In this document: piece by piece, positions 1-19,380 of the stretch
Position numbering within the stretch: position 1 is the first letter of the stretch
How the letters are laid out: every line of letters starts with the position of its first letter
DNA from: Chamaelirium japonicum
Taxonomy: Eukaryota > Streptophyta > Magnoliopsida > Liliales > Melanthiaceae
Assembly (NCBI GenBank): GCA_947650365.1
Contig: CANTAL010000027.1
Coordinates: 1,054,001 to 1,118,000, forward strand
Direction: 5' to 3'
Length of the DNA: 64,000 nt
Translations under genes and position numbers: made by a program
Notes under the pieces: generated by a model
What the model was told of the DNA's origin: nothing
The model's input: only the letters and a program-made list of their open reading frames with translations
Databases searched by the model: none

Positions 1-2814
1 ATCTTGCGAATAAATTAGAATGGATCGTACGAATGAATTAGAATGGATCGTATGAATGAATTAGAATGGATCGTGCGAATGAATTAGAATGGATCGTACG
101 AATGAATTAGAATGGATACATTTGTGCGAATAAATAAAAATGGATCGTACGAATGAGTAAGAATAGATCGTTCGAATGAAATAGAATGGATCGTACGAAT
201 AAATTAGAATGGATCGTGCTAATGAATTAGAATGGATCGTACGAATGAATTAGAATAGATTGTGCGAATGAATTAGAATGGATAGTACGAATGAATTAGA
301 ATGGATCGTATGAATAAATTAGAATGGATCGTAAAAATGATCTAGAATGGATCGTACGAATGAATTAGAATGGATATATTCGTGCGAATGAATTAGAATG
401 GATCGTACGAATGAGTAAGAAAGGATCATACGAATGAAATAGAATGGATCGTACGAATGAATTAGAATGGATCGTGCTAATGAATTAGAATGGATCGTAC
501 GAATGAATTAGAATAGATTGTGCGAATGTATTAGAATCGATCGTACGAATGAATTAGAATGGATACATTCGTGCGAATTAATTAGAATGGATGTATGAAT
601 GAATTAGAATGGATCGTATGAATGAAATAGAATAGATCGTACGAATGAATTAGAATGGATACATTCGTGCGAAAGAATTAGAAAGGATTGCATGAATGAA
701 TTAGAATGGATCGTATGAATGAATTAGAATGGATCGTGCGAATGAATTAGAATGGATCGTACGAATGAATTAGAATGGATCGTATGAATGAATTAGAATG
801 GATCGTGCGAATGAATAAGAATGGATCGTACGAATGAATTAGAATGGATCGTTTGAATGAATTAGAATGGATCGTGCGAATGAATTAGAATGGAACGTAC
901 GAATGAATTAGAATGGTTACATTCGTGCGAATGAATTAGAATGGATCGTACGAATGAGTAAGAATGGATCGTATGAATGAAATAGAATGGATCGTATGAA
1001 TGAATTAGAATGGATCGTGCTAATGAATTAGAATGGACCGTACGAATTAATTAGAATAGATTGTGCGAATGAATTAGAATGGATCGTACGAATGAATTAG
1101 AATGGATACATTCGTGCGAATGAATTAGAATAGATCGTATGAATGAATTAGACTGGATCATATGAATGAATTAGAATGGATTGTACGTATGAATTAGAAT
1201 GGATAAATTCATGGGAATGAATTAGAATGGATCGTACGAAGAAATTAGAATGGATCGTATGAAGGAATTAGAATGCATCGTACGAAGGAATTAGAATGGA
1301 TCGTACGAATGAATTAGAATGAATACATTCATGCGAATGAATTAGAATGGATCGTATGAATGAATTAGAATGAATCGTATGAATGAATTCGAATGGATCG
1401 TACGAATGAATTAGAATGGATACATTCGTGCGAATGAATTAGAATAGATCATACGAAGGAATTAGGGTGGATCATACGAATGAATTAGAATGGATACATT
1501 CGTGCAAAAGAATTAGAATAGATTATATGAATGAATTAGAATGGATCGTATGAATGAATTAAAATGGATCGTGCGAATGAATTAGAATGGATCGTACGAA
1601 TGAATTAGAATGGATCGTACGAATGAATTAGAATGGATCGTGCCAATGAATTAGAATGGATCGTACGAATGAATTAGAATGGATACATTCGTGCGAATGA
1701 ATTAGAATGGATCGTACGAATGAGTAAGAATGGATCGTACGAATGAATTAGAATGGATCGTATGAATGAATTAGAATGGATCGTACGAATGAATTAGAAT
1801 GTATCGTATGAATGAATTAGAATGGATCATGCAAATGAATTAGAATGGATCGTATGAATGAATTAATATGGATACATTCGTGCGAAAGAATTAGAATGGA
1901 TTGTATGAATTAATTACAAAAGATCTTGCAAATGAATTAGAATGGATCGTGCGAATGAATTAGAATGGATCGTACGAATGAATTAGAATAGATTGTGCGA
2001 ATGAATTAGAATGGATCGTACGAATGAATTAGAATGGATACATTCGTGCGAATGAATTAGAATGGATCGTACGAATGAATTAGAATGGATCGTACGAATG
2101 AATTAGAATGGATCGTACGAATGAATTAGAATGGATTGTGTGAAAGAATTAGAATGGATTGTATGAAAGAATTAGAATGGATCGTACGAATGAATTAGAA
2201 TGGATTGTGTGAAAGAATTTGAATGGATCGTACAAATGAATTAGAATAGATTGGGTGAATGAATTAGAATGGATCGTACGAATGAATTAGAATGGATACA
2301 TTCGTGCGAATGAATTAGAATGGATCATATGAATGAATTAGAGTGGATCGTATGAATGAATTCGAATGGATCGTACGAATGAATTAGAATGGATACATTC
2401 GTGCGAATGAATTATAATGGATCATACGAAGGAATTAGGGTGGATCGTACGAATGAATTAGAATGGATACATTCGTGCGAAAGAATTAGAATGGATTGTA
2501 TGAATGAATTAGAATGATCGTATGAATGAAATAGAATGGATCGTGCGAATGAATTAGAATAGATCGTACGAATGAATTAGAATGAATCGTATGAATGAAT
2601 TAGAATGGATCGTGCAAATGAATTAGAATGGATCGTATGAATGAATTAGAATGGATACATTCGTGTGAATGAATTAGAATAGATCGTACGAATGAGTAAG
2701 AATGGATCGTACGAATGAAATAGAATGGATCGTACGAATGAATTAGAATGGATTGTGCTAATGAATTTGAATGAATTAGAATAGATTATGGGAATGAATT
2801 AGAATAAGAATGGA
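1..2814 (+). repeat. 23-bp satellite array, plus orientation
   Basis: Uninterrupted tandem array. The monomer is GAATGAATTA followed by GAATGGATCGTAC (23 bp), mixed with a 28-bp variant in which TACATTCGTGC replaces TCGTGC. Monomers differ mainly in the TCGTACGA core (TCGTATGA, TCATACGA, TTGTGCGA) and in marked types reading GAGTAAG, GAAATAG or GTGCTAATG that recur in fixed order. The array runs off the left edge of the window. Orientation is called plus where GAATGGATCG reads on the top strand. No gene is seen. Confidence 0.97.
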
Positions 2815-5236
2815 TCCATTCTAATTCCTTCGCACGAATGTATCCATTCTAATTCGTTCGTACGATTCATTCAAATTCATTCGCACAATCTACTCTAATT
2901 CATTCGTACGATCCATTCTAATTCATTCGTATGATCCACCCTAATTCTTTCGTATGATCCATTCTAATTCATTTGTACGATCCATTCTAATTCATTCATA
3001 CGGTCCATTCTAATTCATTCGTACGATCCATTCTAATTCATTCGCACAATCTATTCAAATTCATTCGTACGATCTATTCTAATTCATTAGCACGATCCAT
3101 TCTAATTCATTCGTACGATCCATTCTTACTCATTTGTACGATCCATTCTAATTCTAATTCATTCGTACGATCCATTCTAATTCATTAGCACGATCCATTC
3201 TAATTCATTTGCACAATCAATTCTAATTCATTCGTACGATCCATTCTATTTCATTCGCATGATCCATTCTAATTCATTCGCACGATCTATTCTAATTCAT
3301 TCATATAATCCATTCGAATTCTTTCGCACGAATGTATCCATTCTAATTCTTTCGTACGATCCACCCTATTTCCTTCGTATAATCCATTCTAATTCATTCG
3401 CACGAATGTATCCATTCTAATTCATTCGTACGATCCATTCAAATTCATTTGTACGATCCATTCTAATTCATTCATACGATCCATTCTAATTCATTCGCAC
3501 GAATGTATCCATTCTAATTCATTCGTACGATCCATTTTAATTCACTCGCACAATCTATTCTAATTCATTCGTACGATCCATTCTAATTCTTTTGCACGAA
3601 TGTATCCATTCTAATTCATTCGTACGATCCATTCTAATTCCTTCGTACGATCCATTCTAATTCCTTCGTACGATCCTTTCTAATTCCTTCGTACGATCCA
3701 TTCTATTTCATTCGTATGATCCATTCTAATTCCTTCTTATGATCCATTCTAATTCATTCCCATGAATGCATCCATTCTAATTCATACGTACGATCTATTC
3801 TAATTCATTCATACGATCCAATCTAATTCATTCATACGATCCATTCTAATTCATTCGTACAATCCATTCTAATTCATTCGCACAATCTAGTCTAATTCAT
3901 TCATACGATCCATTCTAATTCATTAGCACGATCTATTCTAATTCATTCGTATGATTCATTCTATTTCATTCGTACGATCCATTCTTACTCATTCGTACGA
4001 TCCATTCTAATTCATTCGCACGAATATATCCATTCTAATTCATTCGTACGATCCATTCTAATTTATTCGCACGATCCATTCCAATTCATTTATTCGAACC
4101 ATTCTAATTCATTCGTACGATCCATTCTAATTCATTCACACGATCCATTCTAATTCATTCATACGATCCATTCTAATTCTTTCACACGATCCATTCTAAT
4201 TCTTTCACACGAATGTATCCATTCTAATTCATTCGTACGATCCACTCTAATTCCTTCGTATTATCCATTCTAATTCATTCGTACGATCCATTCTAATTCA
4301 TTCGCACGATCCATTCTAATTCATTCATACGATCCATTATAATTCATTCGTACAATCCATTCTAATTCGTTCACACAATCTATTTTAATTCATTCATACG
4401 ATCCATTCTAATTCATTAGACTATCCATTCTAATTCATTCGTACGATCCATTCTATTTCATTCGTATGATCCATTCTTACTCATTCGTACGATCCATTCT
4501 AATTCATTAGCATCATCCATTCTAATTCATTCGTACGATCCATTCTATTTCATTCGTACGATCCATTCGTACCCATTCGTACGATCGATTCTAATTCATT
4601 CGCACGAATGTATCTATTCTAATTCATTCGTACGATCCATTCTAATCCATTCGCACGATCCATTCTAATTCATTCATATGATCCATTCTAATTCATTCGC
4701 ACGATCCATTCTAATTCATTCATACAATCCATTCTAATCCATTCATACAATCCATTCTAATTCTTTCGCACGAATGTATCCATTCTAATTCATTCGTACG
4801 ATCCACCCTAATTCCTTCGTATGATCTATTCTAATTCATTCGCACGAATGTATCCATCCTAATTCATTCGTACGATCCATTCGAATTCATTCATATGATC
4901 TATTCTAATTCATTCGTACGATCTATTCTAATTCATTCATAAGATCCATTCTAATTCATTCGCACGAATGTATCCTTTCTAATTCATTCGTACGATCCAT
5001 TCTAATTCATTCGCACAATCTATTCTAATTCATACGTACGATCCATTCTAATTCATTCATACGATCCAATCTAATTCATTCATACGATCCATTCTAATTC
5101 ATTCGCAAGAATGTATCCATTCAAATTCATTCGCACGATCCATTCTAATTCATTCGTACGATCCATTCTAATTCATTCGCACGATCCATTCTAATTCATT
5201 CATATGATCCATTTTAATTCATTCGTACGATCCATT
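2815..5236 (-). repeat. 23-bp satellite array, inverted block
   Basis: Same satellite read on the bottom strand. The left junction is a palindrome, GAATGGATCCATTC, centred at 2814/2815. Marked monomers appear in reverse complement (CTTACTC, CTATTTC, ATTAGCAC). Much of this block is duplicated, with indels, at about 19.59-21.9 kb. No gene is seen. Confidence 0.96.
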
Positions 5237-5732
5237 CGTATGAATGAATTAGAAAGGATCGTACGTATGAATTAGACTGGATACAATCATGGGAATGAAT
5301 TAGAATGGATCGTACGAATGAATTTGAATGGATCCATACGTACGATCTATTCTAATTCATTCATAGCATCCATTCTAATTCATTCGCACGAATATATCCA
5401 TGGGAATGAATCCATTCTAATTCATTCGCACGATCCGTTCTAATTTATTCGTACGATCCATTCTAATACAATTGCACTATCAATTCTAATTCATTTGCAC
5501 GATCCATTCTAATTCATTCATATGATCCATTCTAATTTATTCGCACGAATGTATCCATTCTAATTCATTCGTACGATCCATTCTAATTCATTCGCACAAT
5601 CTATTCTAATTCATTCGTACGATCCATTCTAATTCATTAGCACGATCCATTCTAATTCATTCATACAATCCATTCTAATTTATTCGTATGATCCATTCTA
5701 TTTCATTCATACAATCCATTCTAATACATTCT
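5237..5732. repeat. Satellite mosaic with short strand flips
   Basis: A plus-strand island of about 95 bp (5237-5330) is followed by minus-strand monomers to about 5732. Near 5398 there is an odd junction, ATCCATGGGAATGAATCC, which recurs near 62165. No gene is seen. Confidence 0.9.
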
Positions 5733-6241
5733 AGATTGTGCGAATGAATTAGAATGGATACATTCGTGCGAAAGAATTAGAATGGATTGTATGAATTAAT
5801 TACAAAGGATCTTGCAAATGAATTAGAATGGATCGTGCGAATGAATTAGAATGGATCGTACGAATGAATTAGAATAGATTGTGCGAATGAATTAGAATGG
5901 ATCGTACGAATGAATTAGAATGGATACATTCGTGCGAATGAATTAGAATGGATCATATGAATGAATTAGAATGGATCATATGAATGAATTCGAATGGATC
6001 GTACGAATGAATTAGAATGGATACATTCATGCGAATGAATTATAATGGATCAAACGAAGGAATTAGGGTGGATCGTACGAATGAATTAGAATGGATACAT
6101 TCGTGCGAAAGAATTAGAATGGATTGTATGAATGAATTAGAATGGATCGTATGAATGAAATAGAATGGATCGTGCGAATGAATTAGAATGGATCGTACGA
6201 ATGAATTAGAATAGATCGTATGAATAAATTAGAATGGATCG
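5733..6241 (+). repeat. 23-bp satellite, plus block cut by the retrotransposon
   Basis: Plus-orientation monomers leading into the 5' LTR. Positions 5940-6200 align with 2311-2570 at an offset of about 3628 bp, sharing private variants such as GAATTATAATGG and AATTAGGGTGG. The block resumes at 19381 on the far side of the element. Confidence 0.95.
6237..6241. other. Target-site duplication, left copy (GATCG)
   Basis: The five bases GATCG immediately before the LTR start TGTTGGGG are repeated at 19381-19385 after the LTR end CGAACA. A 5-bp duplication is usual for Ty3/gypsy integrase. Removing the element and one copy restores a normal satellite monomer. Confidence 0.95.
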
Positions 6242-6370
6242 TGTTGGGGTTAGCCAGAAACCACATATCTTGGATAGCCTTGCAAAGCACATCGGAGATA
6301 GAGTTCTCGAGGAAGCCCGTCCAGGAGCTGGAACCCTCGGAAGCCGAGCGTGCCCCATTTAAGCTCGCAG

Positions 6371-6653
6371 GGAGCTCACCCTCCCAGCCCATCAGGAGCT
6401 CGCCCCCACAGGGAGCTGGATGGACACCTTGTATCTGAGTGCAGCTCGCCCCTCCCAGCCCATCAGGAGCTCGGCCCCACAGGGAGCTGGATGGACACCT
6501 TGTATCTGAGTGCAGCTCGCGCCTCCCAGCCCATCAGGAGCTCGCTCCCGCAGGGAGCTGGATCGACACCTTGTATCTGAGTGCAGCTCGCCCCTCCCAG
6601 CCCATCAGGAGCTCGCCCCTGCAGGGAGCTGGATGGACACCTTGTATCTGAGT
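6371..6653 (+). repeat. 71-bp minisatellite in the 5' LTR, four copies
   Basis: Units at 6371-6440 (70 bp), 6441-6511, 6512-6582 and 6583-6653, each ending CACCTTGTATCTGAGT. The 3' LTR has three. The copies differ by a few substitutions each. Lying in U3, they may carry promoter or enhancer elements; that is inference. Confidence 0.93.
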
Positions 6654-6759
6654 GCAGCTCGCCCCTCTTAGACCCCGCAGGAGTTCGCTCCCCCGTACTC
6701 ATCGAATCATCTTGACAGTGGAGCGAGATCCACATTGGGCTGAAGGGACCGAAGGCCAA

Positions 6760-7004
6760 GAGCTCGCTCAGGAGCTCGCCCAAGTTCACTCAGGAGCTCG
6801 CCTAGCTCGCGCACGAGCTCGCCCATGCTCGCACAGGAGCTCGCCCATGCTCGCACAGGAGCTCGCCCAGGCCAAGTTCACTCAGGAGCTCGCCTAGCTC
6901 GCTCAGGAACTCGCCTAGCTCGCACACGAGCTCGCCCATGCTCGCACAGGAGCTCGCCCATGTTCGCTCAGGAGCTCGTCTAGCTCGCTCAGGAGCTCAC
7001 CCAG
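6760..7004 (+). repeat. Short AGCTCGCC-type repeats in the 5' LTR
   Basis: Irregular tandem repeats of about 20-22 bp built on CAGGAGCTCGCC followed by CATGCTCGCA, TAGCTCGCT or AAGTTCACT. The matching stretch in the 3' LTR (18649-18865) is about 27 bp shorter. Confidence 0.85.
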
Positions 7005-7284
7005 ACCCCTGTTTATCGAAGAGGTTGCTCCCGCAAGGTCCGACTCTTGATAAATACGGACAAGGGGGCGGAGCAGTGTAGGGCGAGCTTGCCTTTGCTT
7101 ACTCCCTCAGACCGCCCAAACTCGAGCATTCCAGAATGGCCACCTGGCCACGACAAGAAAGATTCCCTCCCCCACTCAAACCGTCTGGCAGGCTTGACGA
7201 CAGAATGTCAGGGCGCGAGTACCAAGGACTGTCAGACCCACGCGAGCCAGATCGTGGGGGTCTAGAAAGCCCTGGAAGAATCTC

Positions 7285-7323
7285 CACGTGTCGGGGTACG
7301 ATAGGCCGCCGATTGCTATAAAT
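7285..7323 (+). promoter_or_regulatory. 5' LTR core promoter: G-box and TATA box
   Basis: TATAAAT lies at 7317-7323 in the context TTGCTATAAATGC, with CACGTG (G-box core) at 7285-7290, 27 bp upstream. The arrangement is unchanged in the 3' LTR at 19146-19184. Transcription would be expected to begin about 30 bp downstream, near 7350, which would mark the start of R. The start site is inferred. Confidence 0.75.
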
Positions 7324-7521
7324 GCTCACCCCCAGGCTCCATAGTACAGGTTGGAATTCCTTTTCCTACCACCTTGGTATACCGCAGCTCGCCGTTGTGC
7401 CCCCGTGACTGACTTGAGCGTCGGAGGGTCTGCGCTCCTAAGGGAGCCAGCCGTTCTCACGTTCTCTTTTCTTTGTCTTGCAGGCAGCCCGCATGGACCA
7501 GCAAAAAATCCCCCGAACATT

Positions 7522-7538
7522 TGGCACCATCTGTGGGA
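7522..7538 (+). other. Primer-binding site
   Basis: TGGCACCATCTGTGGGA starts two bases after the LTR end. The opening TGG matches the tRNA CCA end, and the sequence resembles the TGGCGCCGTCTGTGGGA-type site common in Tat-lineage elements (two differences). I do not assign the tRNA with certainty. The leader 7539-7609 before gag shows nothing else I recognise. Confidence 0.8.
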
Positions 7539-8251
7539 TCTTCGACTGGTTCCTGCGAGAACGCCCACGGCCACGCGGTTGAGCACCGTTCGCTTTTGTA
7601 ACCCCAAAGATGGCTCCGGTGACAAGGGGACGCAGGCGACCGAGGACTCGTGCCAGATCTACACGCAGCGAGCCTCCGGTCGAGACCCCTCAGCCCCCGG
7701 TCCCGCTCAGTGACCAACTCTTGTTGGAGATGTTGGTCACCCAGCGGGCGATGATGGAGGAGCTGACACGATTGCGTCAGGCTCCGGCGGCCAGCCGACG
7801 ATCTGGGCCGGCGAAGACGGCGTCTTCGGTGCGACCACCGACGTCAACATCGCGCCCTCCCACGATCGCTCCGACGCGGCAGGTTTCCCATCCGGAACCC
7901 CCAGTCGGGAGAGCGGCTACGCGAGGGGTGCCGGAAACCCCGCTCACAAGGTTGCAGAAGCTAGTCACCCAGCGATCTAGCAACCAGGCGACCTCGCGCG
8001 TGACCATCCCTTGCCGCCGTAGCCGGAGCGTTGATTCTGACGGATCGGAGGAAAGGTCTCTAGAGCAGGATCGCGACCCACGCCATCGACGACGAGGGAA
8101 AGAGCCCGTGGTGGAAATACCTTCCGAAGCTCGCGAGGCAACGGCCTCCCACAGACCAACTGACGCGTTGAAGGAATCCGCGGGTGGGCGGCAAGGAGGT
8201 CGCCGAGCGGTTGCCCCCGAGGGTCGCCGCGGGGTGGGACTGACCTCGCCA

Positions 8252-8254
8252 TAA
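8252..8254 (+). other. Nonsense codon in gag
   Basis: TAA in the frame that starts at 7610. The frame continues sensibly for another 170 bp. The next six bases are GGGAGC, not a known readthrough context, so this looks like decay. Confidence 0.75.
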
Positions 8255-8423
8255 GGGAGCGTGCGAGACCGCCTAGGACCTGCGCAGCCGCCTCTGGGAG
8301 TTCTCCCCGGGCACTGGCAGCGATCTAGTGCGCCAGTAGATTTACTTGAAGACCTCGCCGCCCACGGAGGTAGCTCGCCTTTCACCAGCGAGGTCCACCA
8401 AGGAGGTTTTCCGCACCACTGGA

Positions 8424-8431
8424 CCCCCCCC
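8424..8431 (+). other. C8 homopolymer, probable frameshift in gag
   Basis: Upstream, the recognisable gag sense lies in the frame of 7610; downstream (KFVLFDGSQDP onward) it lies one base further on. A single-base length change in this run accounts for the switch. Confidence 0.7.
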
Positions 8432-10112
8432 GAAGTTTGTATTGTTCGACGGGTCGCAGGATCCCGTTGACCATCTCTTGGCTTACAGAAAGCTCCTGTT
8501 TTTCCGGGACCAAGACCATGTCTTGTGCCGAGCATTCCCGAGCAGCTTGACCGGCTCGGCATTGAACTGGTTCCACAAGTTGCCGCCCGGCATGATCCCC
8601 GACTTTCCAACTCTCTCTAGGCTATACCTGGAGCAGTATCGCTGCAATAGGCAGCTCCCGAAGAGAATCGAGTCTCTGTTTACCTTAACCATGGGAGCCC
8701 GCGAGACACTCCGGTGCTTCGCAATGCGATTCCGAAGCGCCTACCTCGCTCTGGAAGACGCAGCGGGCCAAGATCGTACCGTGGTGAGTGCTTTCAGAAG
8801 CGCCCTCCCCGAGGGTTGCAAGCTTCATGACGCTCTAGTGATCAAGGACCCTCACACGATGGTTGAACTATTTGCCCTAGTCCAGCAACACATCAAGCTC
8901 GAAGACGCTGTGCTAGACTGGAAGGGAAAGGCAGTCGAGCAGCGACCTCCTCCGGCCCCGCGGCCGCTTGTCGTTAAGGCCGTGGAGAGAAGGGAGGTGC
9001 CCCTGGCGGTGCCTTTGCCCGGAGCGCCCGCTGTTCTTGCTGAACAGCCCGCTGAAGCCCCCGTGGCTGTCGCTGGAAGGCAGGCGAACTGGCGCCTGCC
9101 TCCAGGACCCGGGGAGCGGGACTTCACCGTGCTAACCCACTCGCCAGGACAAATCTTCCATCAGATTCGGAATGAACCTTTCTTCCAGTACCCGCCACCC
9201 CTGCAGGTCGGAGAGCCTGGCTCTACCGATAACTCGCGGTGGTGCGCTTTTCATCGAAGCCCTGGGCATCACACTAACAGATGCCGGGCTCTCAAGAACC
9301 ACCTCGAGGATTTGGTCACCCAGGGCCACTTGAATCAGTTTATTTCGCCTCCAAGGAGGTTCGAGGTGGTACCGGCACGGGCTCCTCGGGAGGGAGATCG
9401 CCCGGGGCCCGCTGAGCCCGCCCTGCCTCCGCCTTCCCCGGGAGGACCGGCGATCTGCCATACCATTAGCGGGCGGCTGAGCGGCCTGAGATCCAGTAAT
9501 GAAGCCCGCCGACGAGTCAGGGAGATGGAGCGGGCACAGAAGGTATTTTCCGTCTCGCTAACTCCTACTTTACTTCAAGCACCAAGGGTGGAAGCCAGCG
9601 ATTTTCTCTGGTTTTCGGAAGATGACATGACTGGGGTCGTTACGCCCCACAATGACCCCCTCGTCATACGCCTGATGATGGCTAACATCGAGGTGAGGCG
9701 AGCTCTGGTTGATTCGGGGAGCGCCATGGACATCCTTTTTCTGTCGCCCTACCTGCGAATGGGGTTGAGACTCGCCGACCTGTCTCCCTCGACGAGCTCC
9801 CTCAGTGGATTCACCGGCGAGGTCGCCAAAGTGGCAGGGGAAATAACCCTCACTGTGACCGCTGGCCCGGAGGCTCGCCAAGTCCGCTTCGCGGTAGTGG
9901 ATGGAAGTTCCGCATTTAATGCCATCCTTGGGCGGCCTTGGCTAAGGCAAATGAATGCGGTAGCTTCACCCAACCATCAGGCCCTCAAATTCCCGACCGC
10001 GAGCGGGGTCGTAGTAATTCGGGGTGATCAGGTAGCCGCTACCCGATGCGAGCAGGATGTCCTTCACCTCATGGACATGGAGGTCACCGAGGCCAAGAGG
10101 CCCGCGCCCTCC

Positions 10113-10121
10113 TAGCAATTA
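10113..10121 (+). promoter_or_regulatory. Possible stop-codon readthrough signal TAG-CAA-TTA
   Basis: The gag-PR frame ends in TAG followed directly by CAATTA, and the pol frame continues without a shift. UAG-CAR-YYA is the established leaky-termination context first characterised in tobacco mosaic virus. The element's other stops (8252, 10401, 10905) lack it. This stop may therefore be functional, setting the gag-PR to pol ratio, while the others are decay. This is inference from one copy. Confidence 0.55.
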
Positions 10122-10400
10122 CCGCCCGCTATGAGCGAGCTATTGGGGAGCCCGCTGGAGGCCTCCTCGCTTAAGTCCCCTACTCTACCCCCGGGTGGGA
10201 GCGGTGTGGACCTTAAGTTGGAGGAGGGAGGTCGCCCGACAACCCCCAAGAGAGGAAGTTTTCCAATTGCCGAACCACTTCAAGAGGTCGACCTTGGCGG
10301 CAAGGAAGGGCCAAGAGTTGTTAGCCTCGGGACCTCGCTAACCAAGGGCGAGGTCCTGGCCATAACCAACTTACTCAAGGAATACCGTGACGTATTCGCC

Positions 10401-10403
10401 TAG
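10401..10403 (+). other. Amber codon upstream of RT
   Basis: TAG inside the conserved stretch between EYRDVFA and SFADMPGIDPE, where relatives usually have a tryptophan codon. One G-to-A transition would explain it. The following bases are AGCTTC, with no readthrough motif. Confidence 0.8.
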
Positions 10404-10904
10404 AGCTTCGCGGACATGCCAGGGATTGACCCGGAGGTCGCCTGTCATTGTCTGCACACCATGAAGGAGTTCCCGCCGGTCAAGCAGAAAGCTCGGCACA
10501 TACCTGCTGCGAAGTCTGTTGCAGTGGCGGCGGAGATAGACAAGCTGGAGCGAGCCGGCTTCATCCGCGAGGCGTACTTCCCCAAGTGGATCTCCAATAT
10601 CGTGGCGGTGCCTAAGAAGAGCGGAGCGGTCAGGGTGTGCATTGACTTCTCTGACCTCAACAAGGCATGCCCGAAGGACGGATTTCCTCTTCCGAGAATA
10701 GGCGCACTGGTCGACGCAGCTGTCGGGTTCCAGGCCCTGTCCTTCATGGATGGATACTCTGGGTATAACCAGATACCTCTCCACGCCGACGATCAGGAGA
10801 AGACCGCCTTCTACTCTGGAGCGGGCTACCAGAAGCTGTACTGCTATCGAGTGATGCCGTTCGGACTTAAGAACGCTGGAGCGACCTACCAAAGGTTAGT
10901 CACT

Positions 10905-10907
10905 TAG
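10905..10907 (+). other. Amber codon inside RT
   Basis: TAG between TYQRLVT and MFKDQIG, in the helix after the RT motif MPFGLKNAG. It is followed by ATGTTC. It splits the polymerase domain, so this copy is unlikely to make active RT. Confidence 0.85.
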
Positions 10908-13681
10908 ATGTTCAAAGATCAGATCGGCAGAAACGTCGAAGTTTATGTAGACGACCTCCTGGTGAAGAGTCGGGAGCGAGAGGGGCATGTTGCCGATCTC
11001 CGCGAAACCTTTGAGGTACTGAGAAAGTACCAAATGAGGCTAAACCCGGCGAAGTGCGCATTCGGGGTGACTTCGGGGAAATTCCTCGGGTACCTGGTCA
11101 CCCACAGGGGGATCGAGGCCGACCCTGGGCAAATCCGAACACTTGTCGAAATGCCTGCGCCGAGGACCCGGCAGGAAGTCCAGAGATTGAGCGAGCGAAT
11201 CGCCGCGCTCAATCGGTTTATCTCCAAATCCTCAGACAACTGCCGACCTCTTTTTGAGCTGCTACGAAAAGGAGCGAGCATTTGTTGGGATGAGAAGTGC
11301 GAGCACGCCTTCCAGAAGATCAAAGACTACCTGGCGAGCCCGCCGATCTTAGCGGCACCCAAAGAGGGCGCCGAACTCGGCGTATACCTTGCGGTCACTG
11401 AGAATGCGGTGAGCGGGGTCCTGGTTGTGGAAGAAGCAAAGGTGGAGCGGCCTGTGTACTTTGTAAGCCACACAATACTCCCCACCGAGCTCCGGTATCG
11501 ACCAATCGAGAAGGTCGCATTGGCCTTGGTCCTTACCGCAAGAAAGCTCCACCCCTACTTCTTGGCCCACCCTGTCAGGGTCATCACAGAGCACCCTCTA
11601 AAGAGCGCGCTCTCCAGGCCCTCGGTAGCCGGCAGGCTCTACCGTTGGTCCGCCGAGCTCGCCGCCTATGGTTTGGAGTATATCCCTCGAGTTGCTGTCA
11701 AAGGACAGGCGCTCGCCGATTTCTTGGCGAACTTCCCCATAGAAGAACCGGTCCAGTACCGGGAGGATGAGCCAACTGAGGCACACCCTGGGAAGGCGAG
11801 GTTCTTGGACAACCAAGGCGAGCTTCCTCCAACTAAGCGTTCAGAGGAGGCAGGCTGGGAATTATTCGTCGATGGATCCTCCAACGCTTTAGGGGCTGGG
11901 ATCGGGGTCGCACTGATCGCCCAGTCGGTACTTCTGGAGAAGTCAGTCCGACTGGATTTCGCAGCTACCAACAATGAGGCGGAATATGAGGCGCTGCTGG
12001 CTGGCCTGGAGCTCGCTCAAGAGGTAGGCACCAAACGCTTGAAGGTCTTTAGCGATTCCCAGCTAATTATTTGCCAAATCAATGGGGAGTACGCCTCTCG
12101 GGATGCACGAATGGCGGGCTATGTGGATCTGGTGAAGCACAAGGCCGCGGAGTTTGAAAAGATCTCCTTCGAGCAAATTCCACGAGCCGATAATAGGCGA
12201 GCTGATGCTTTGGCAAACGCCGCCTCTTTGCTGGGAACATCAGAGGCTCGCCAGATTCTCATCGAAGTCCAAAATCAGTCTCGGCTCCAACTGATGGAGC
12301 CCGCTGTTAACCAAGTCTCCGCCGACGTACCACCCAGCGGGTGGACCGCCCCTATTTTTCGCTTTCTCCAGATAGGCGAGCTACCAGATGATAGAGAGGA
12401 AGCCCGGCGAGTGGAGAAATGCGCTGGGCGCTATCTCATTCGCTGGGATCGCCTTTTTCGAAGATCCTTTGGAGGGCCGAATCTCCGTTGCGTCGAGAGC
12501 CCAGAAACTGAAGAAGTTTTAAAGTGCATTCACTCTGGCGAGCTGGGAAACCACGCTGGTGGGCGGTCCCTTGCTGCGAAAGTACGAAGGCAAGGATACT
12601 GGTGGCCCACTCTGGAGCAAGACGCTTTGAAGGTCGCCCAGAGGTGTATCCAATGCCAGAAGCACGCCACCACGAACCATATGCCCGCAGAAGAACTGCA
12701 TCCCCTGGCGAGCCCCTGGCCTTTCCAGCAATGGGGGTTGGACATTGTGGGACCTTTCCCTGTGTCAGCCCGGCAAAGGAAATTCATCCTAGTAGCTACG
12801 GACTACTTCACCAAATGGGTGGAAGCCGTCCTGCTAGCTAAGATAGGCGAGAAGCAGGTAAAAGACTTCCTTTGGAAGAATATTTTCTGTCGGTTCGGTC
12901 TGCCTCGGGTACTTATCACCGACAATGGTCGCCAGTTCGACAATCGCTTAATCAGAAGCTTTTGTGTTGAATATGGAGTCGACCTAAGATTCTCTTTCCC
13001 AAGGTACCCTCAAAGCAACGGGCAGGCCGAAGCAACGAATCGCGTGATCTTGGACAACCTCAAGAAGAAGCTGGAAGGGAAAAAAGGATTGTGGGAGCAG
13101 GAGCTCGATGGAGTCTTGTGGGCCTATCGCACTACTCCACGTCGCTCAACTAACAAATCCCCTTTCAGTCTCACTTTTGGTTGCGAAGCCGTGCTACCCA
13201 TAGAGGCCGAGCTGCCCACTGAAAGAAGGCTTGCGTTGGCGGAGGTCGACAACGACAAACTGCTCGTCGACTCCCTTGATCAGCTCGAAGAAAGACGAGA
13301 GCGCGCCAATCTACACCTCGCCGGATACAGACAAGAGATGAAGCGCGCCTATGACAAAAGAGTCCGCCATCGGGCATTCAAGGCCGGCGATCTGGTGATG
13401 AGAAAGGTGTTTGCAAACACGCAAGAGCCTAATGCAGGAAAGCTCATGGCGAACTGGGAAGGCCCATACATAATACACGAAGCAGGAAGCTCGGGGGCTT
13501 ACCGGTTGATGACCGCTGGAGGCGACCTGTTAGAGCGACCTTGGAACGCTCTGCACCTTCGCAAGTTCTATGCCTAAGGGAATTTTTGTAAATTCTGAAG
13601 AAGTTATGAATGAACGATAGAGGTTTTCAACAATTTAACTAGGAGGCTCGGCGCAGACAGAGCCCGCATGATCTATAGTGT

Positions 13682-14105
13682 GCAGTCCGCCGTTGTGCGG
13701 ACTTAAAGCAAGACCGGGATCCTCAGAGGCAGCCAGTGGGCGACCTTGAGCTTCCCGGGGCAGTCTGCCATTGTGCGGACTTAAAGCAAAACCGGGATCC
13801 TCAGAGGCAACCAGTGGGCGACCTTGAGTTTACCGGGGCAGTCCGCCGTTGTGCGGACTTAAAGCAAGACCGGGATCCTCAGAGGCAGCCAGTGGGCGAC
13901 CTTGAGCTTCCCGGGGCAGTCCGCCGTTGTGCGGACTTAAAGCAAGACCGGGATCCTCAGAGGCAGCCAGTGGGCGACCTTGAGCTTCCCGGGGCAGTCC
14001 GCCGTTGTGCGGACTTAAAGCAAGACCGGGATCCTTAGAGGCAGCCAGTGGGCGACCTTGAGCTTCCCGGGGAAGTCCGCTGCCTAGTGGACTCTAAACC
14101 TAACC
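13682..14105 (+). repeat. 78-bp tandem repeats, each with a hairpin
   Basis: Five full units and a diverged sixth, with exact 78-bp spacing (GGGATCC at 13716, 13794, 13872, 13950, 14028). Each contains AGTCCGC, a 6-base loop, then GCGGACT, at 13684, 13762, 13840, 13918, 13996 and 14074. Because 78 is a multiple of three, the array stays open as 26-residue repeats (GDLELPGAV...) from about 13736 to 14233. I judge that to be a by-product rather than a gene, since it has no upstream start context and follows the pol stop. It lies in the 3' untranslated part of the genomic RNA. Confidence 0.93.
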
Positions 14106-14552
14106 AGGATTCTTCGCGTTCACCTGCCATGAACGGAAGCATCCTGGCGTTGGCAAACCCCTCAAAGGGCGAGCCCGCAAAACAGGATCATCGAGAGAAA
14201 TTAACCGGGCAGGGGGCAGCTAGCACTTATTAGTTTCCTTTAAAATAAAAATGGTTTAAGTCTCTGAGTGTAGGGAAGTTTTTGAAGTCTTTTGGTTCGC
14301 TTAAACGTTTTCCGGGCTCAGAGACTCGAGTTTTTGTGAGCATGCCGAGTTTTTCGTTTGCATATACTTTAAAATAAAAAGATTGAATCGAATTAGCTGC
14401 CTCGCCCGGGGTATCACTCTCGAGATCGCTGCGAACTCCTAGAGCGGGCTCATAAGTGGCACATAGAAAGAAAGAAACGCATATGCGGACTCAAAAAGAT
14501 ATAAATTTCATTGATTGACAAAAATTACAAAAGTAGTTACAAGGCAGCAAGC
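14106..14552. other. AT-rich non-coding spacer between convergent genes
   Basis: Lies between the 78-bp array and the end of the antisense gene. It has two copies of CTTTAAAATAAAAA, at about 14238 and 14368, each containing AATAAA (14244 and 14373), which could act as polyadenylation signals for plus-strand transcripts. On the minus strand AATGAAATTT, near 14505-14515, could serve the antisense gene. No other gene is seen. Confidence 0.6.
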
Positions 14553-15080
14553 TCAAGGCTTGCTTGTCTCCGCCCCACTGTCGTCCCCTCGGCGCCGCTT
14601 CTTCGACCTTTCGGTCTTGTACTTCTCCACAGCGGCCAGGGCGCCTTTCTTGAGGAGATCGTCCAGTTGGGCTTGGAGGCGACCTTGCTGAGCCCGAAGG
14701 CCGTTGGTGTGTGTCTCCTTCAAGGCCGCGATCTCCGTCTTCAGAGCAGCGACCTCGCCTTGAAGTTGTGCCGCCTCCCGCTGTGCGACCTCCCGGGCGG
14801 ACACAGCTTCGTCTCGCTCCGCCTTGGCCTTGAGGAGGGCGGTAGCGGACAGGCCTTTGGCTACCTCGGCCATGGCGAGGCCTGACGCTACGGTTTTGAC
14901 CCTGCGGTGCAGTGCCTCTGACTCCGCCCTCAGCTCCTCGGAGCCCTTGGCTCGCTGAAGCTCGTGGATGTGCTCGTCTACCTTGCGCTCGAACCCCCGA
15001 AGGGAATCATCAAACAAGGCGGCCAGTGCCTTCCCGGCCCCAGCGACCTCCGCGGCCAGCGCCTGGCTCTGCTTCTCCGC

Positions 15081-15152
15081 CTGCATAAGGAAGGTGAAAG
15101 AGTTAGCAAGAATTGAGACTAAGATTTGTACGGAGACAGGTGCGGTGAGTAC
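15081..15152 (-). other. Probable 72-bp intron in the antisense gene
   Basis: On the minus strand the donor is GAG|GTACTC and the acceptor TTATGCAG|GC. A branch-point-like GCTAAC lies about 25 bases before the acceptor, and the interior is pyrimidine-rich. It is phase 0 and 24 codons long, so the frame is open with or without removal. Removal would take out a hydrophobic stretch and start the coiled coil directly. Not proven without RNA. Confidence 0.55.
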
Positions 15153-16135
15153 CTCAGCAAGGCGTTCGCTTATGGAAGCGAAGGGAGCACGCACGAAAAC
15201 GTTGCGGCCCAGCAGCTGCCGCACGTAGTGGGGCGCCCTCCCCTCCCCCGCAGAGGAGCCCGCGCTGGGACCCCTGGGAGCTCCGGAAGGAGGGGGCACG
15301 CCAGGAGGAGTGGGGGCTATCACCTCCCCCGGGCGAGCTCCGGCTCCTAGCGGGCTCGGAGGGTCCGCCGTGGCCCCCTTGGCCTCCGACTCTGAGCTGA
15401 AGGACTCGGAGTCGGAGCCAATGTCTACAAAGCTAGGGGACCTCTAGACAGGTCCCCTAAGCCCTGCTGGGAGCCCGTTCCCTCCTGGCCTTCTGCAGGA
15501 GGCGAGGCCGGAGGGGCGGGAGCTGGAGCGGCCGCCGGTGTAGAGGCCGCGGGAGGTGGAGCCGATGCCGGCAAGGAGGTCGCAGCGACGGTGACGGATT
15601 CGCCCTGCTGGGCCCCTGCCCCGTCGGCGGGAGGTGGAAGCTCCTGCCCGCTCGGTCCCACCCCTGGTGCGGGAACTGATGGAGCTGCGGGCTTCTCCAC
15701 TTGGGCGGGAGCGACAGGCTCCGCCCGAAGAGCTTGAGGGGCGGGCTCTTCCTCCTCGGAGCCTGTTGCCTCCTCCGCAGAGTCCGTCCAACTGGGCTCC
15801 GAGTCCAAGCCCGCCTCCTCCAGCGCTTTCCGCCATTGCTCCGCCTGGACGTTAGAAGGCGCGGGCCCCGCGCGCTTGGCCTTCTTCTTCCCGCATGCCT
15901 CCATCTCCGGCGTCAGCACTGCTACACGAAGCGGCACGGTCAGATCGCCCGGGAAGTAGCCCATTAGAATTTGAGCCATCCCGGATTCGACTTCCGCCAT
16001 GGTAAGTGGGAGGTCGATGTTCGGGTCGTCGGGCTCAACCATTTGGATCTTGCGGCGGACAATTGGAGTTGGGGTGGGAGGCTGACCTGGGCCGGCGTCC
16101 GGGCGAGGAGGCTGCGGAGGAGCGAAATCTTTGCC

Positions 16136-16138
16136 CTA
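16136..16138 (-). other. Amber codon in the antisense gene
   Basis: TAG on the minus strand between TMEMLR and GKDFAPPQPPRP, with the same frame open on both sides. Confidence 0.65.
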
Positions 16139-17160
16139 GCGGAGCATCTCCATGGTGTCGGGGTCGTTGAGGCGGATGGGCGAAGCCCGCCTCCGGACCG
16201 TCTTCTTGCGGGGGTTGCCTCCCGAGCTCCCGGCCCCCTTGCTGGCCCCTTTAGAGGGAGGAGCGTTCTGCATCGGCGGAATAGCGCCGATCTCCTCCTC
16301 TTTCTTCTTCCGGACGATCTTCTGCTTCAGCAGAATGGCGCCGGTCTTCCAGTCCTTCAGCTGGAAGGCGAAGTCGGGAGTGGTGATCTTCTCCGGAGTC
16401 CGCCCACCGAGGTAGTGGAGCGATGCACTTCTTCTTCCCCGCCTTGTAGAAGGAGATCTCCCAGAAGACCGCCGTCGGGGGAACCCCGGGGTGAGCCGGG
16501 ACTCCGCTGTGCCGCCCGCGCCAGTCACCGACCGCCACGAAAGGATAGTCCTTCCAGTGGCGGTCCTTGCTCTCGATGGTGGAGAAGGGGAGCACCTCGC
16601 CAGGCCGCCCGGCGAGGTAGAAGTAGCCGCAGCCCGCGGTGCTGAAGACTGGTGAGGGCTTGAGGAGCCACTTTTTGAGCAAGTAGCTCAGTGGGATCCT
16701 CGCCTTCAGAGCGGTCTCCAGCTGGGACAGCCCATAGAGTATCCCCCAGGAGTTTCCAGAGAGTTGGGCGGGGCAAAGCTCCGTCAACTCCAGGAGCTCC
16801 CCGGCGAGATAATTCAGGGGGAACCGCAGCCCAGACCACAGCAGCCCGACGGAAGCTACTGTGCCCTGGGGCGGCCTCCCTGAGAGTGGCATCTCGGTGA
16901 CGAGGATCTCCCGAGGGAGATCGATCGCCGCCCGGATACTGTCCCCGACAGGCACCCCGACGGGGTTTTGCAGCCAAACCACCGCCCTTTCGGTGGCGGG
17001 CTCAGCAGCCTGGGCGGTGGCAGCAGCGGCAGCAACAGCAGCAGCAACGTCAGCAGCGGAAGCCATGAGAGCAGAAGAGCTAAAGCGAGCTGAAAGCGCT
17101 AGAAGCAAAGGGAGAAGGGAGAGCTGTTTTCACGCAGCGGTAAAAATCGCCCCCCGTCCC

Positions 17161-17170
17161 CTATTTATAG
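17161..17170 (-). promoter_or_regulatory. TATA box for the antisense gene
   Basis: The minus strand reads CCTATAAATAGGGG, a consensus plant TATA box, about 95 bp before the antisense ATG. A start site about 30 bp downstream would give a leader of roughly 70 bases (17067 to about 17135). Confidence 0.75.
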
Positions 17171-17278
17171 GCGAGTGAGAGACAGGCGGATCGATCCGCA
17201 GTTAATGCCCGAGCGCGCGCGGCGAGGCTACGTGACGGCGATCAAAGCGACAGCTCGCTTCTCTCCAATAGTCGAGCG

Positions 17279-17370
17279 CCACGTGGACCACGCGTGGAAA
17301 AAGCTGCGCCGGCGCCAGTACTGTCATTTACTGACAAAAGAAGAGCGAATGAGGAGGAGACACGTGTCTC
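17279..17370. promoter_or_regulatory. G-box palindromes upstream of the antisense TATA box
   Basis: Three perfect palindromes lie within 92 bp: CCACGTGG (17279-17286), CCACGCGTGG (17288-17297) and GAGACACGTGTCTC (17357-17370). Two have the CACGTG core bound by plant bZIP and bHLH factors. They lie about 110-210 bp upstream of the antisense TATA box. The spacer 17371-17512 shows nothing further. Confidence 0.6.
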
Positions 17371-17512
17371 GCACCGATCGGGATCTCATGATGAGATTCG
17401 CCGTATCAGTGTTGAGCCTCGCGCCGCATTTAAGGTGAAGCGACTGATGGAGATTTGGTGCGATACCCAAGTCACAAGATCGCTCGCGGCAGGTGCCCGC
17501 AGCTCGCTCGAG

Positions 17513-18066
17513 GCAGACCCTGACCGCATGTGACAAGCTCGCATCGGAAGGAGATCGCTCGTGGCTGATGCTCCCGGCCCGCCCAGCGTTTGTGAAATAC
17601 TGGCAGTCAAAGCTCTCGGCGCAGACCGCCTATGGCAGGCGCCCAAGCTCGCCCGAAGCAGACCCTGACCGCGTGCGACGAGCTCGCACCGGAAGGAGAT
17701 CGCTCGAGGCTGACGCTCGTGGCCCGCTTGACGTTTGTGGAGTACTGGCAGTCAAAGCTCTCGGCGTAGACCGCCTACGGCAGGCGCCCAAGCTCGCCCG
17801 AGGCAGACCCTGGCCGCACGTGACAAGCTCGCATCGGAAAGAGATCGCTCGTGGCTGACGCTCCCGGCCCGCCCAGTGTTTGAAAAGTACTGAGAGTCAA
17901 AACTCTCGACGCAGACCGCCCGCGGCAGGCGCCCAAGCTCGCCCGAAGCAGACCCTGACCGCATGTGGGGAGCTCGCATCGGAAGGAGATCGCTCGTGGC
18001 TGATGCTCGTGGCCCGCCCGGCGTTTGTGAAATACTGGCAGTCAAAGTTCTCGGCGCAGGCCGCCA
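17513..18066 (+). repeat. 145-bp tandem repeats, about 3.8 copies
   Basis: GCAGACCCTG recurs at 17513, 17658, 17803 and 17948, exactly 145 bp apart; the last unit is partial. Units contain AAGCTCGC and GGAGATCGCTCG words like those in the LTR. The array lies upstream of the antisense promoter and before the polypurine tract. The 18067-18188 stretch shows nothing I can name. Confidence 0.92.
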
Positions 18067-18188
18067 TCGCTACTATCTCCGCCCCGCCAGGAAACTGTTG
18101 CAGCAGACATTGATATCAGGCACATTACCAGGGATAGGAGCTCGCTAAGACTCCTGAGCAAGCGTTGAGTTTCCTCGATCACTCCCTC

Positions 18189-18200
18189 GGGAGGGGGTAA
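18189..18200 (+). other. Polypurine tract
   Basis: GGGAGGGGGTAA directly abuts the 3' LTR start. It is the expected primer for plus-strand DNA synthesis. Confidence 0.88.
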
Positions 18201-19380
18201 TGTTGGGGTTAGCCAGAAACCACATATCTTGGATAGCCTTGCAAAGCACATCGGAGATAGAGTTCTCGAGGAAGCCCGTCTAGGAGCTGGAACCCTCGGA
18301 AGCCGAGCGTGCCCCATTTAAGCTCGCAGGGAGCTCGCCCTCCCAGCCCATCAGGAGCTCGCCCCCACAGGGAGCTGGATGGACACCTTGTATCTGAGTG
18401 CAGCTCGCCCCTCCCAGCCCATCAGGAGCTCGCCCCCACAGGGAGCTGGATGGACACCTTGTATCTGAGTGCAGCTCGCCCCTCCCAGCCCATCAGGAGC
18501 TCGCCCCCGTAGGGAGCTGGATGGACACCTTGTATCTGAGTGCAGCTCGCCCCTCCTAGACCCCGCAGGAGTTCGCTCCCCCGTACTCATCGAATCATCT
18601 TGACAGTGGAGCGAGATCCATATTGGGCTGAAGGGACCGAAGGCCAAGAGCTCGCTCAGGAGCTCGCCCAAGTTCACTCAGGAGCTCGCCTAGCTCACGC
18701 ACGAGCTCGCCCATGCTCGCACAGGAGCTCGCCCAAGTTCACTCAGGAGCTCGCCTAGCTCGCTCAGGAACTCGCCTAGCTCGCGCACGAGCTCACCCAT
18801 GCTCGCACAGGAGCTCGCCCATGTTCGCTCAGGAGCTCGTCTAGCTCGCTCAGGAGCTCGCCCAGACCCCTGTTTATCGAAGAGGTTGCTCCTGCAAGGT
18901 CAGACTCTTGATAAATACGGACAAGTGGGCGGAGCAGTGTAGGGCGAGCTTGCCTTTGCTTCCTCCCTGAGACCGCCCAGACTCGAGCATTCCAGAATGG
19001 CCACCTGGCCACGACAAGAAAGATTCCCTCCCCCACTCAAACCGTCTGGCAGGCTTGACGACAGAATGTCAGGGCGCGAGTACCAAGGACTATCAGACCC
19101 ACACGAACCAGATCGTGGGGGTCTAGAAAGCCCTGGAAGAATCTCCACGTGTCGGGGTACGATAGGCCGCCGATTGCTATAAATGCTCACCCCCAGGCTC
19201 CATAGTACAGGTTGGAATTCCTTTTCCTACCACCTTGGTATACCGCAGCTCGCCGTTGTGCCCCCGTGACTGACTTGAGCGTCGGAGGGTCTGCGCTCCT
19301 AAGGGAGCCAGCCGTTCTCACGTTCTCTTTTCTTTGTCTTGCAGGCAGCCCGCACGGACCAGCGAAAAATCCCCCGAACA
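18201..19380 (+). repeat. 3' LTR (1180 bp)
   Basis: Near-identical to 6242-7519. It has three 71-bp units (18330-18399, 18400-18470, 18471-18541) and a shorter AGCTCGCC repeat block (18649-18865). Outside these arrays I count about 19 substitutions, about 15 of them transitions. TATAAAT is at 19178-19184 and the G-box at 19146-19151. It ends CGAACA before GATCG. Confidence 0.96.

Follow-up and report, generated by a model that had tools for sequence, protein, structure and literature searches.

The element and its coding regions

The window, meaning the whole 64,000-nucleotide stretch of Chamaelirium japonicum DNA that was analysed, contains one LTR retrotransposon (6242-19380) set into a satellite array, with GATCG flanking both ends, which were judged by eye. 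The longest alignment between the two LTRs spans 1077 columns at 95.3% identity and includes 23 mismatches and 28 gap positions. The features of the element, in window coordinates, are as follows.

6242-7519, plus strand: 5′ LTR, with the GATCG target-site duplication just before it; ends by eye
7610-8423, plus strand: 5′ part of gag, starting at the first ATG; in the window copy shifted relative to the remainder by a one-base difference in a C run, and interrupted by TAA 8252
8340-10112, plus strand: gag (Retrotrans_gag) and aspartic protease, in a frame closed by UAG; PF03732, E 4.7e-07; PF13650/PF13975, E 0.0008, under the curated cut-offs
10113-10115, plus strand: UAG stop closing gag-protease, read as leaky; window sequence and conservation among copies
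10116-10121, plus strand: CAATTA, the CARYYA hexamer adjoining the stop 3′; window sequence and conservation among copies
10122-10400, plus strand: spacer of ~90 codons from stop to RT, read as translated; pN/pS 0.44, and 90 or 91 codons in 29 open-frame copies
10401-13577, plus strand: pol, with RT, RNase H, second (RVT_3-type) RNase H, and integrase; Pfam; closes at TAA 13575
16251-17066, minus strand: antisense ORF in the interval from pol to the 3′ LTR; Retand-like placement; from the ORF list, no Pfam match
18201-19380, plus strand: 3′ LTR, with GATCG just after it; ends by eye

The gag-protease frame (8340-10115) terminates at TAG 10113-10115, and the pol frame (10116-13577) follows in the same frame (coordinates divisible by 3). 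The aspartic protease ahead of the stop is a weak Pfam match in the window copy, falling short of the curated cut-offs, and is slightly better in two other copies. In pol, the Pfam order is RVT_1, RT_RNaseH, RVT_3, Integrase_H2C2, and rve—that is, with the zinc-binding domain of integrase followed by its core. The window copy of pol carries two further stops, TAG 10401 and TAG 10905, the latter splitting the RT match in two, and a one-base difference in the C run at 8424-8431 puts the 5′ part of gag in another frame. Among the IMG/VR matches listed (at least 80 loci), identity was 27-37% and restricted to query residues ~287-460, within the second RNase H, and no plant element was recognised among them.

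Several repeats accompany the element. The surrounding satellite array, made up of ~23-base units in both orientations, occupies window positions 1-6241 and those from 19381 onward, with repeat arms reaching out to ~60.3 kb. Tandem repeats of 71 bases lie within both LTRs (6308-6820 and 18267-18708), the 5′ LTR having one extra unit, and 145-base tandem repeats lie ahead of the 3′ LTR (17501-18065).

Classification of the element

The RVT_3 match is taken here to be the second RNase H by which the Tat lineage is recognised. With this reading, the Pfam matches in the window, the weak protease included, follow the Ty3/gypsy order GAG-PROT-RT-RH-INT with a second RNase H between RH and INT, which is the arrangement described for Tat elements of angiosperms (PMC6317226). 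The domain order makes the Tat lineage, named in the preliminary description, the probable one.

Antisense ORFs are found on the minus strand between pol and the 3′ LTR (14553-17066). One of them (17066-16251), together with the distance of ~4.6 kb from the end of pol at 13577 to the 3′ LTR at 18201, corresponds to a trait of Retand elements, in which this region was reported to range from 2,933 to 6,566 bp (PMC11963269). The TRP28 domain (PF04195) was described in the antisense ORF of all but 2 of 63 Retand clusters (PMC11963269), and two Pfam scans of the antisense ORF in the window copy gave no match to it; the element is therefore called Retand-like only. As to Ogre, the spacer appears to be coding in 29 open copies, no donor signal is shared by the 47 site-keeping copies, and this would place the element outside that group.

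The stop codon and hexamer among genomic copies

The window reads CCC TCC TAG CAA TTA at the end of gag-protease. Both the sequence and the frame list bear out the preliminary description, which had placed a TAG-CAATTA at this point with pol following in frame, and had stated that the three other nonsense codons lie outside CARYYA; indeed, their hexamers are GGGAGC, AGCTTC, and ATGTTC. CARYYA comprises 8 of the 4096 hexamers, with a chance of 0.00176 at the base composition of the element, and seven such words occur in any frame among the 5177 positions of window 8400-13577. A hexamer match in one decaying copy is weak evidence by itself, and it is conservation among copies that is decisive.

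With window 9900-10500 as the query, the source genome (1.52 Gb) yielded 1994 first-look candidates, the best 40 of which scored 98-100%, and 30 were extracted (L081-L110). These 30, the window copy among them, match the window best and are biased to close kin; small indels separate most of them from the window copy. TAG-CAATTA is present in all 30, while each of the other in-frame stops between 8400 and 12000 was found in at most two, and 14 copies have no other stop. TAG 10401 and TAG 10905 are private to the window copy, and of the 28 other close copies covering the C run, 26 lack the extra C near 8424-8431. From the 14 copies without another stop, eight were checked for the 5′ part of gag and six for the 3′ part of pol. 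TAA 8252 is absent in all eight (two of which carry some other stop there), and the terminal TAA of 13575 is kept in all six, four being open up to it and two having internal stops. Thus, three of the four nonsense codons in the window recur in none of the other copies checked, and the fourth, TAG 10113, is a trait of the family.

A wider sample was drawn independently of the stop by means of the back-translated protease motif FNAILGRPW, which was found at 1500 places genome-wide, 100 of them listed. The sample consists of the first 30 motif places on contig C1 (L111-L140) and 20 places (L141-L160) hand-picked from the other 70 listed, mostly rarer variants of the motif. The site region has been lost in three (L131, L151, and L153) and is kept in 47 of the 50. 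The 9-mer in these 47 copies is TAGCAATTA in 38, TAGCAGTTA in seven, TAGCAACTA in one, and TAGTAGTTA in one; TAG is accordingly found in 47/47 and CARYYA in 46/47 (38 CAATTA, 7 CAGTTA, and 1 CAACTA), the sole exception, L128, being one transition away from the motif. Near-identical copies of the region lie ~49 kb apart on contig C1 in two instances, L126/L127 and L113/L114, which suggests local duplication.

In 5-kb stretches around eight more-divergent copies, protease identity to the window was observed to fall to 71% (L161), 67% (L163), and 47% (L162), and TAG CAGTTA is present in all three of these. Frameshifts or stops beyond the site mark all three as decayed, and the coding capacity of the older families is thus only putative. 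TAG-CARYYA predates the divergence of subfamilies whose proteases are 47-71% identical to that of the window. When the bases before the stop and CARYTA after it were used as anchors, with the codon between them left free, TAG was found at 1396 of 1418 places genome-wide, leaving 22 without it. A separate genome-wide count, in which both the stop and CARYYA were required along with a non-T base next, gave 1367 places. All of these copies come from one genome and are related by descent, so the counts are not independent events. The comparison of copies proposed in the preliminary description, carried out here within this one genome, revealed neither a sense codon in most copies nor a freely varying hexamer; TAG-CARYYA is present in nearly every copy examined.

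Constraint at the RNA level

Diversity was scanned from protease to RT over 220 codon-phased 9-mers in 44 aligned rows, leaving out the three copies that had lost the site (L131, L151, and L153), two that are frameshifted or interrupted downstream (L136 and L142, both with TAG CAATTA), and L128 with TAGTAGTTA. TAGCARYYA showed the lowest mean diversity of all 220 (0.035, the mean being 0.223), and variation within it was confined to R (A in 37 rows, G in seven) and the first Y (T in 43, C in one); the zero diversity at the first position of the hexamer would become 1/45 with L128 included. Directly after the hexamer, the next base has a diversity of 0.68 in the 44 rows, and the sequence beyond the site diverges. 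The 9-mers ranked next start at −6 and −3 and overlap the stop, so the 5′ context of the stop may also count. The residues KRPAPS directly before the stop (window 10095-10112) are well conserved as protein across families, with variable third positions; they possibly extend the signal to the 5′ side or form a conserved C-terminus of Gag-PR.

The Leu codon of the hexamer ends in A in 47/47 copies, whereas the share of A-ending codons ranges from 0 to 0.78 at 15 other conserved Leu columns; therefore, it is the RNA that is conserved, and not the protein alone. A-ending codons make up 18% of the Leu codons in the gag-pol frame of the window (8430-13574). In the window copy, the RNA 3′ of the stop folded no better than shuffled sequences (z 0.32, with 123/200 folding as well), which is to be expected because the signal is described as consisting of the hexamer (PMC2754532, PMC2194720).

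Selection downstream of the stop codon

Among the 30 close copies, pN/pS was lowest for RT-RNase H (0.17), followed by gag-PR (0.27) and the spacer (0.50). The same ratio was obtained from 29 of the 50 wider copies, namely those whose frame runs uninterrupted from the protease motif to RT, a choice that favours open frames; for pairs with pS > 0.15, it was 0.14 for the protease end, 0.44 for the spacer, and 0.18 for the first 100 codons from DVFAW on the RT side. Protease, spacer, and RT are thus under purifying selection in copies that bear the stop. The preliminary description had presumed a product from pol, in frame past the stop, and selection on the pol side of stop-bearing copies argues for such a product. 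All 29 open copies have a spacer of 90 or 91 codons, which, given this near-constant length and the in-frame selection on it, looks to be read in the gag-protease frame.

Proposed mechanism and alternative explanations

Programmed UAG readthrough of the tobacco mosaic virus (TMV) type very probably separates Gag-PR from RT-RNase H-integrase in this Tat-type Ty3/gypsy element, and would thereby set the ratio of Gag-PR to Pol. Most ribosomes would halt at the UAG, releasing Gag-PR, and a minority would decode it—with tyrosine, if the insertion follows that made in plants with the TMV signal—since the adjoining 3′ CARYYA is predicted to weaken termination, yielding Gag-PR-Pol. The excess of Gag-PR over Pol, its size depending on the rate of readthrough, would serve particle assembly. 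The overall reading in the preliminary description, with readthrough and the protease on the Gag side, is supported by the copy survey and by selection on the pol side, from which readthrough is inferred.

Four other explanations of the stop were considered. That the TAG arose by ordinary mutational decay (from CAG at a methylated C, for instance), with the hexamer there by coincidence, could be supposed from the three other stops and the frame disruption in the window copy, as well as from the predominance of C→T and G→A changes among copies; however, the stop is present in 30/30 close copies and in all 47 site-keeping wider ones, unlike every other stop between 8400 and 12000 in the close copies, and extends to families at 47-71% protease identity, which leaves decay with a negligible probability. 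Shared descent of the close copies alone could account for a common stop if a non-autonomous master had lost pol expression through it and then multiplied by means of Pol provided in trans, with the stop as a hitchhiker. Such hitchhiking is highly unlikely, with pN/pS of pol and spacer downstream well below 1 and the hexamer kept at the RNA level across divergent subfamilies, where 46 of 47 copies vary only within CARYYA. Furthermore, the terminal TAA of pol is kept in the six copies checked, four of them open throughout that part, although all six had been pre-chosen as free of other stops.

Splicing out of the stop is suggested by its position, the same as that of the Ogre intron between protease and RT; Ogre relatives were described as having two ORFs ~274 bp apart on average and partial splicing (PMC6317226). 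Against this stand the in-frame spacer of near-constant length, under selection in the 29 open copies, and the sequence itself: the window spacer, with T at 0.19, is not T-rich, the best GT at a fixed upstream offset is shared by 41/47 copies and none by all 47, and five donor-like words are absent from the 195 bases before the stop in 39/47, with one GTRAG in window 9600-10112. Splicing would also leave the conservation of CARYYA unexplained, and is highly unlikely. Pol could instead be made separately, by reinitiation or internal initiation past the stop, and the Met of DMPGIDP (codon 99 or 100) is indeed the first in-frame AUG in 23 of the 29 open copies. A model of this kind, however, gives TAG-CARYYA no role and places the start behind a 90-codon spacer that is itself under in-frame purifying selection; no conserved AUG was found near the stop in the 29 open copies, and the model is highly unlikely. 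Decay, hitchhiking, splicing, and independent initiation were all rejected on these grounds.

Comparison with known readthrough and Gag-Pol systems

Readthrough in TMV yields the replicase, and in murine leukaemia virus the protease lies on the pol side. The signal of the element, in contrast, is situated between gag-protease and pol, with the protease on the gag side, and its readthrough is a prediction. The features shared with the TMV type I signal are the UAG, CAA or CAG and YYA directly 3′, an in-frame downstream ORF, and, in the window copy, no local RNA structure beyond chance. UAG is invariant in the 47 site-keeping copies, CARYYA holds in all except L128, and the downstream ORF is in frame and selected as protein; in TMV, the six nucleotides CAR YYA were described as essential for readthrough (PMC2754532). 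Murine leukaemia virus likewise has an in-frame UAG between gag and pol, but requires a purine-rich spacer and a pseudoknot (PMC2194720), whereas the signal here is CARYYA.

Among plant elements, RIRE2 of rice, which is of the Gypsy type and placed in Retand (PMC6317226), was cited as a candidate for readthrough (Ohtsubo et al., 1999, in PMC2754532); the likeness is drawn from the description in these citing papers. SIRE1 of soybean is also a plant LTR retrotransposon with stop codon suppression, but belongs to Ty1/copia, and its suppressed stop serves an envelope-like protein, according to a title cited in PMC2194720. Ogre, itself in Tat, shares the boundary and the two ORFs, gag-protease and RT-RH-INT, but splices an intron there (PMC6317226), whereas the spacer here looks coding. 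With RIRE2 already cited as a candidate, the present family is not the first of its sort, and it is the comparative evidence that is unusually strong. Among the listed titles and abstract openings of open-licence PubMed Central, none described a plant retrotransposon family with UAG-CARYYA at its gag-pol junction, and no priority is claimed.

Implications

Control of Pol relative to Gag, such that less Pol is made, is mostly obscure in plant Ty3/gypsy elements, for which a leaky stop would offer a concrete mechanism. Splicing was shown for Ogre, and most plant Ty3/gypsy groups were described as having one ORF (PMC6317226). In wheat, in-frame stops were counted as a measure of degeneration (PMC9744471); where the stop is not decay, counting of this kind would flag such elements as defective, which should be borne in mind in annotation.

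Of 63 Retand clusters, 37 were reported to have gag and pol joined in a single ORF, with 29% in ‘Liliaceae’ (as printed, and read here as Liliopsida, the monocots) versus 83% in eudicots, in a paper that makes no use of the word ‘readthrough’ (PMC11963269). There is perhaps an even chance that UAG-CARYYA readthrough with a Gag-side protease is an ancestral and general means of Gag-Pol control in a large monocot branch of Retand-like elements. If so, it would explain the difference between 29% and 83% in PMC11963269, and the leaky stop of the plant-virus type would be among the commonest recoding sites of plant genomes by copy number.

Other protease families in the genome

More than 1000 places in this one genome keep a leaky stop of the plant-virus type, and families of the same genome in which the motif was not found offer the natural comparison. 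A second pattern, YNxILGR..W, gave 772 places, 100 of them listed, from which 12 stretches of 700 bases were hand-picked. A stop followed by CARYYA was found in none of the 12 in any sense-strand frame, most of the stretches ending short of RT, so that a later stop is possible. Nine of the 12 belong to a different family, YN[IT]ILGRPWL, which is Tat-like by eye only, and in three of the 12 (L169, L178, and L180) no stop interrupts the 233 codons read. In the YNIILGRPW family (L169, L177, L178, L179, and L180), the protease is followed by a long repetitive spacer with repeats like KTDLSVERKELTVSGDL.
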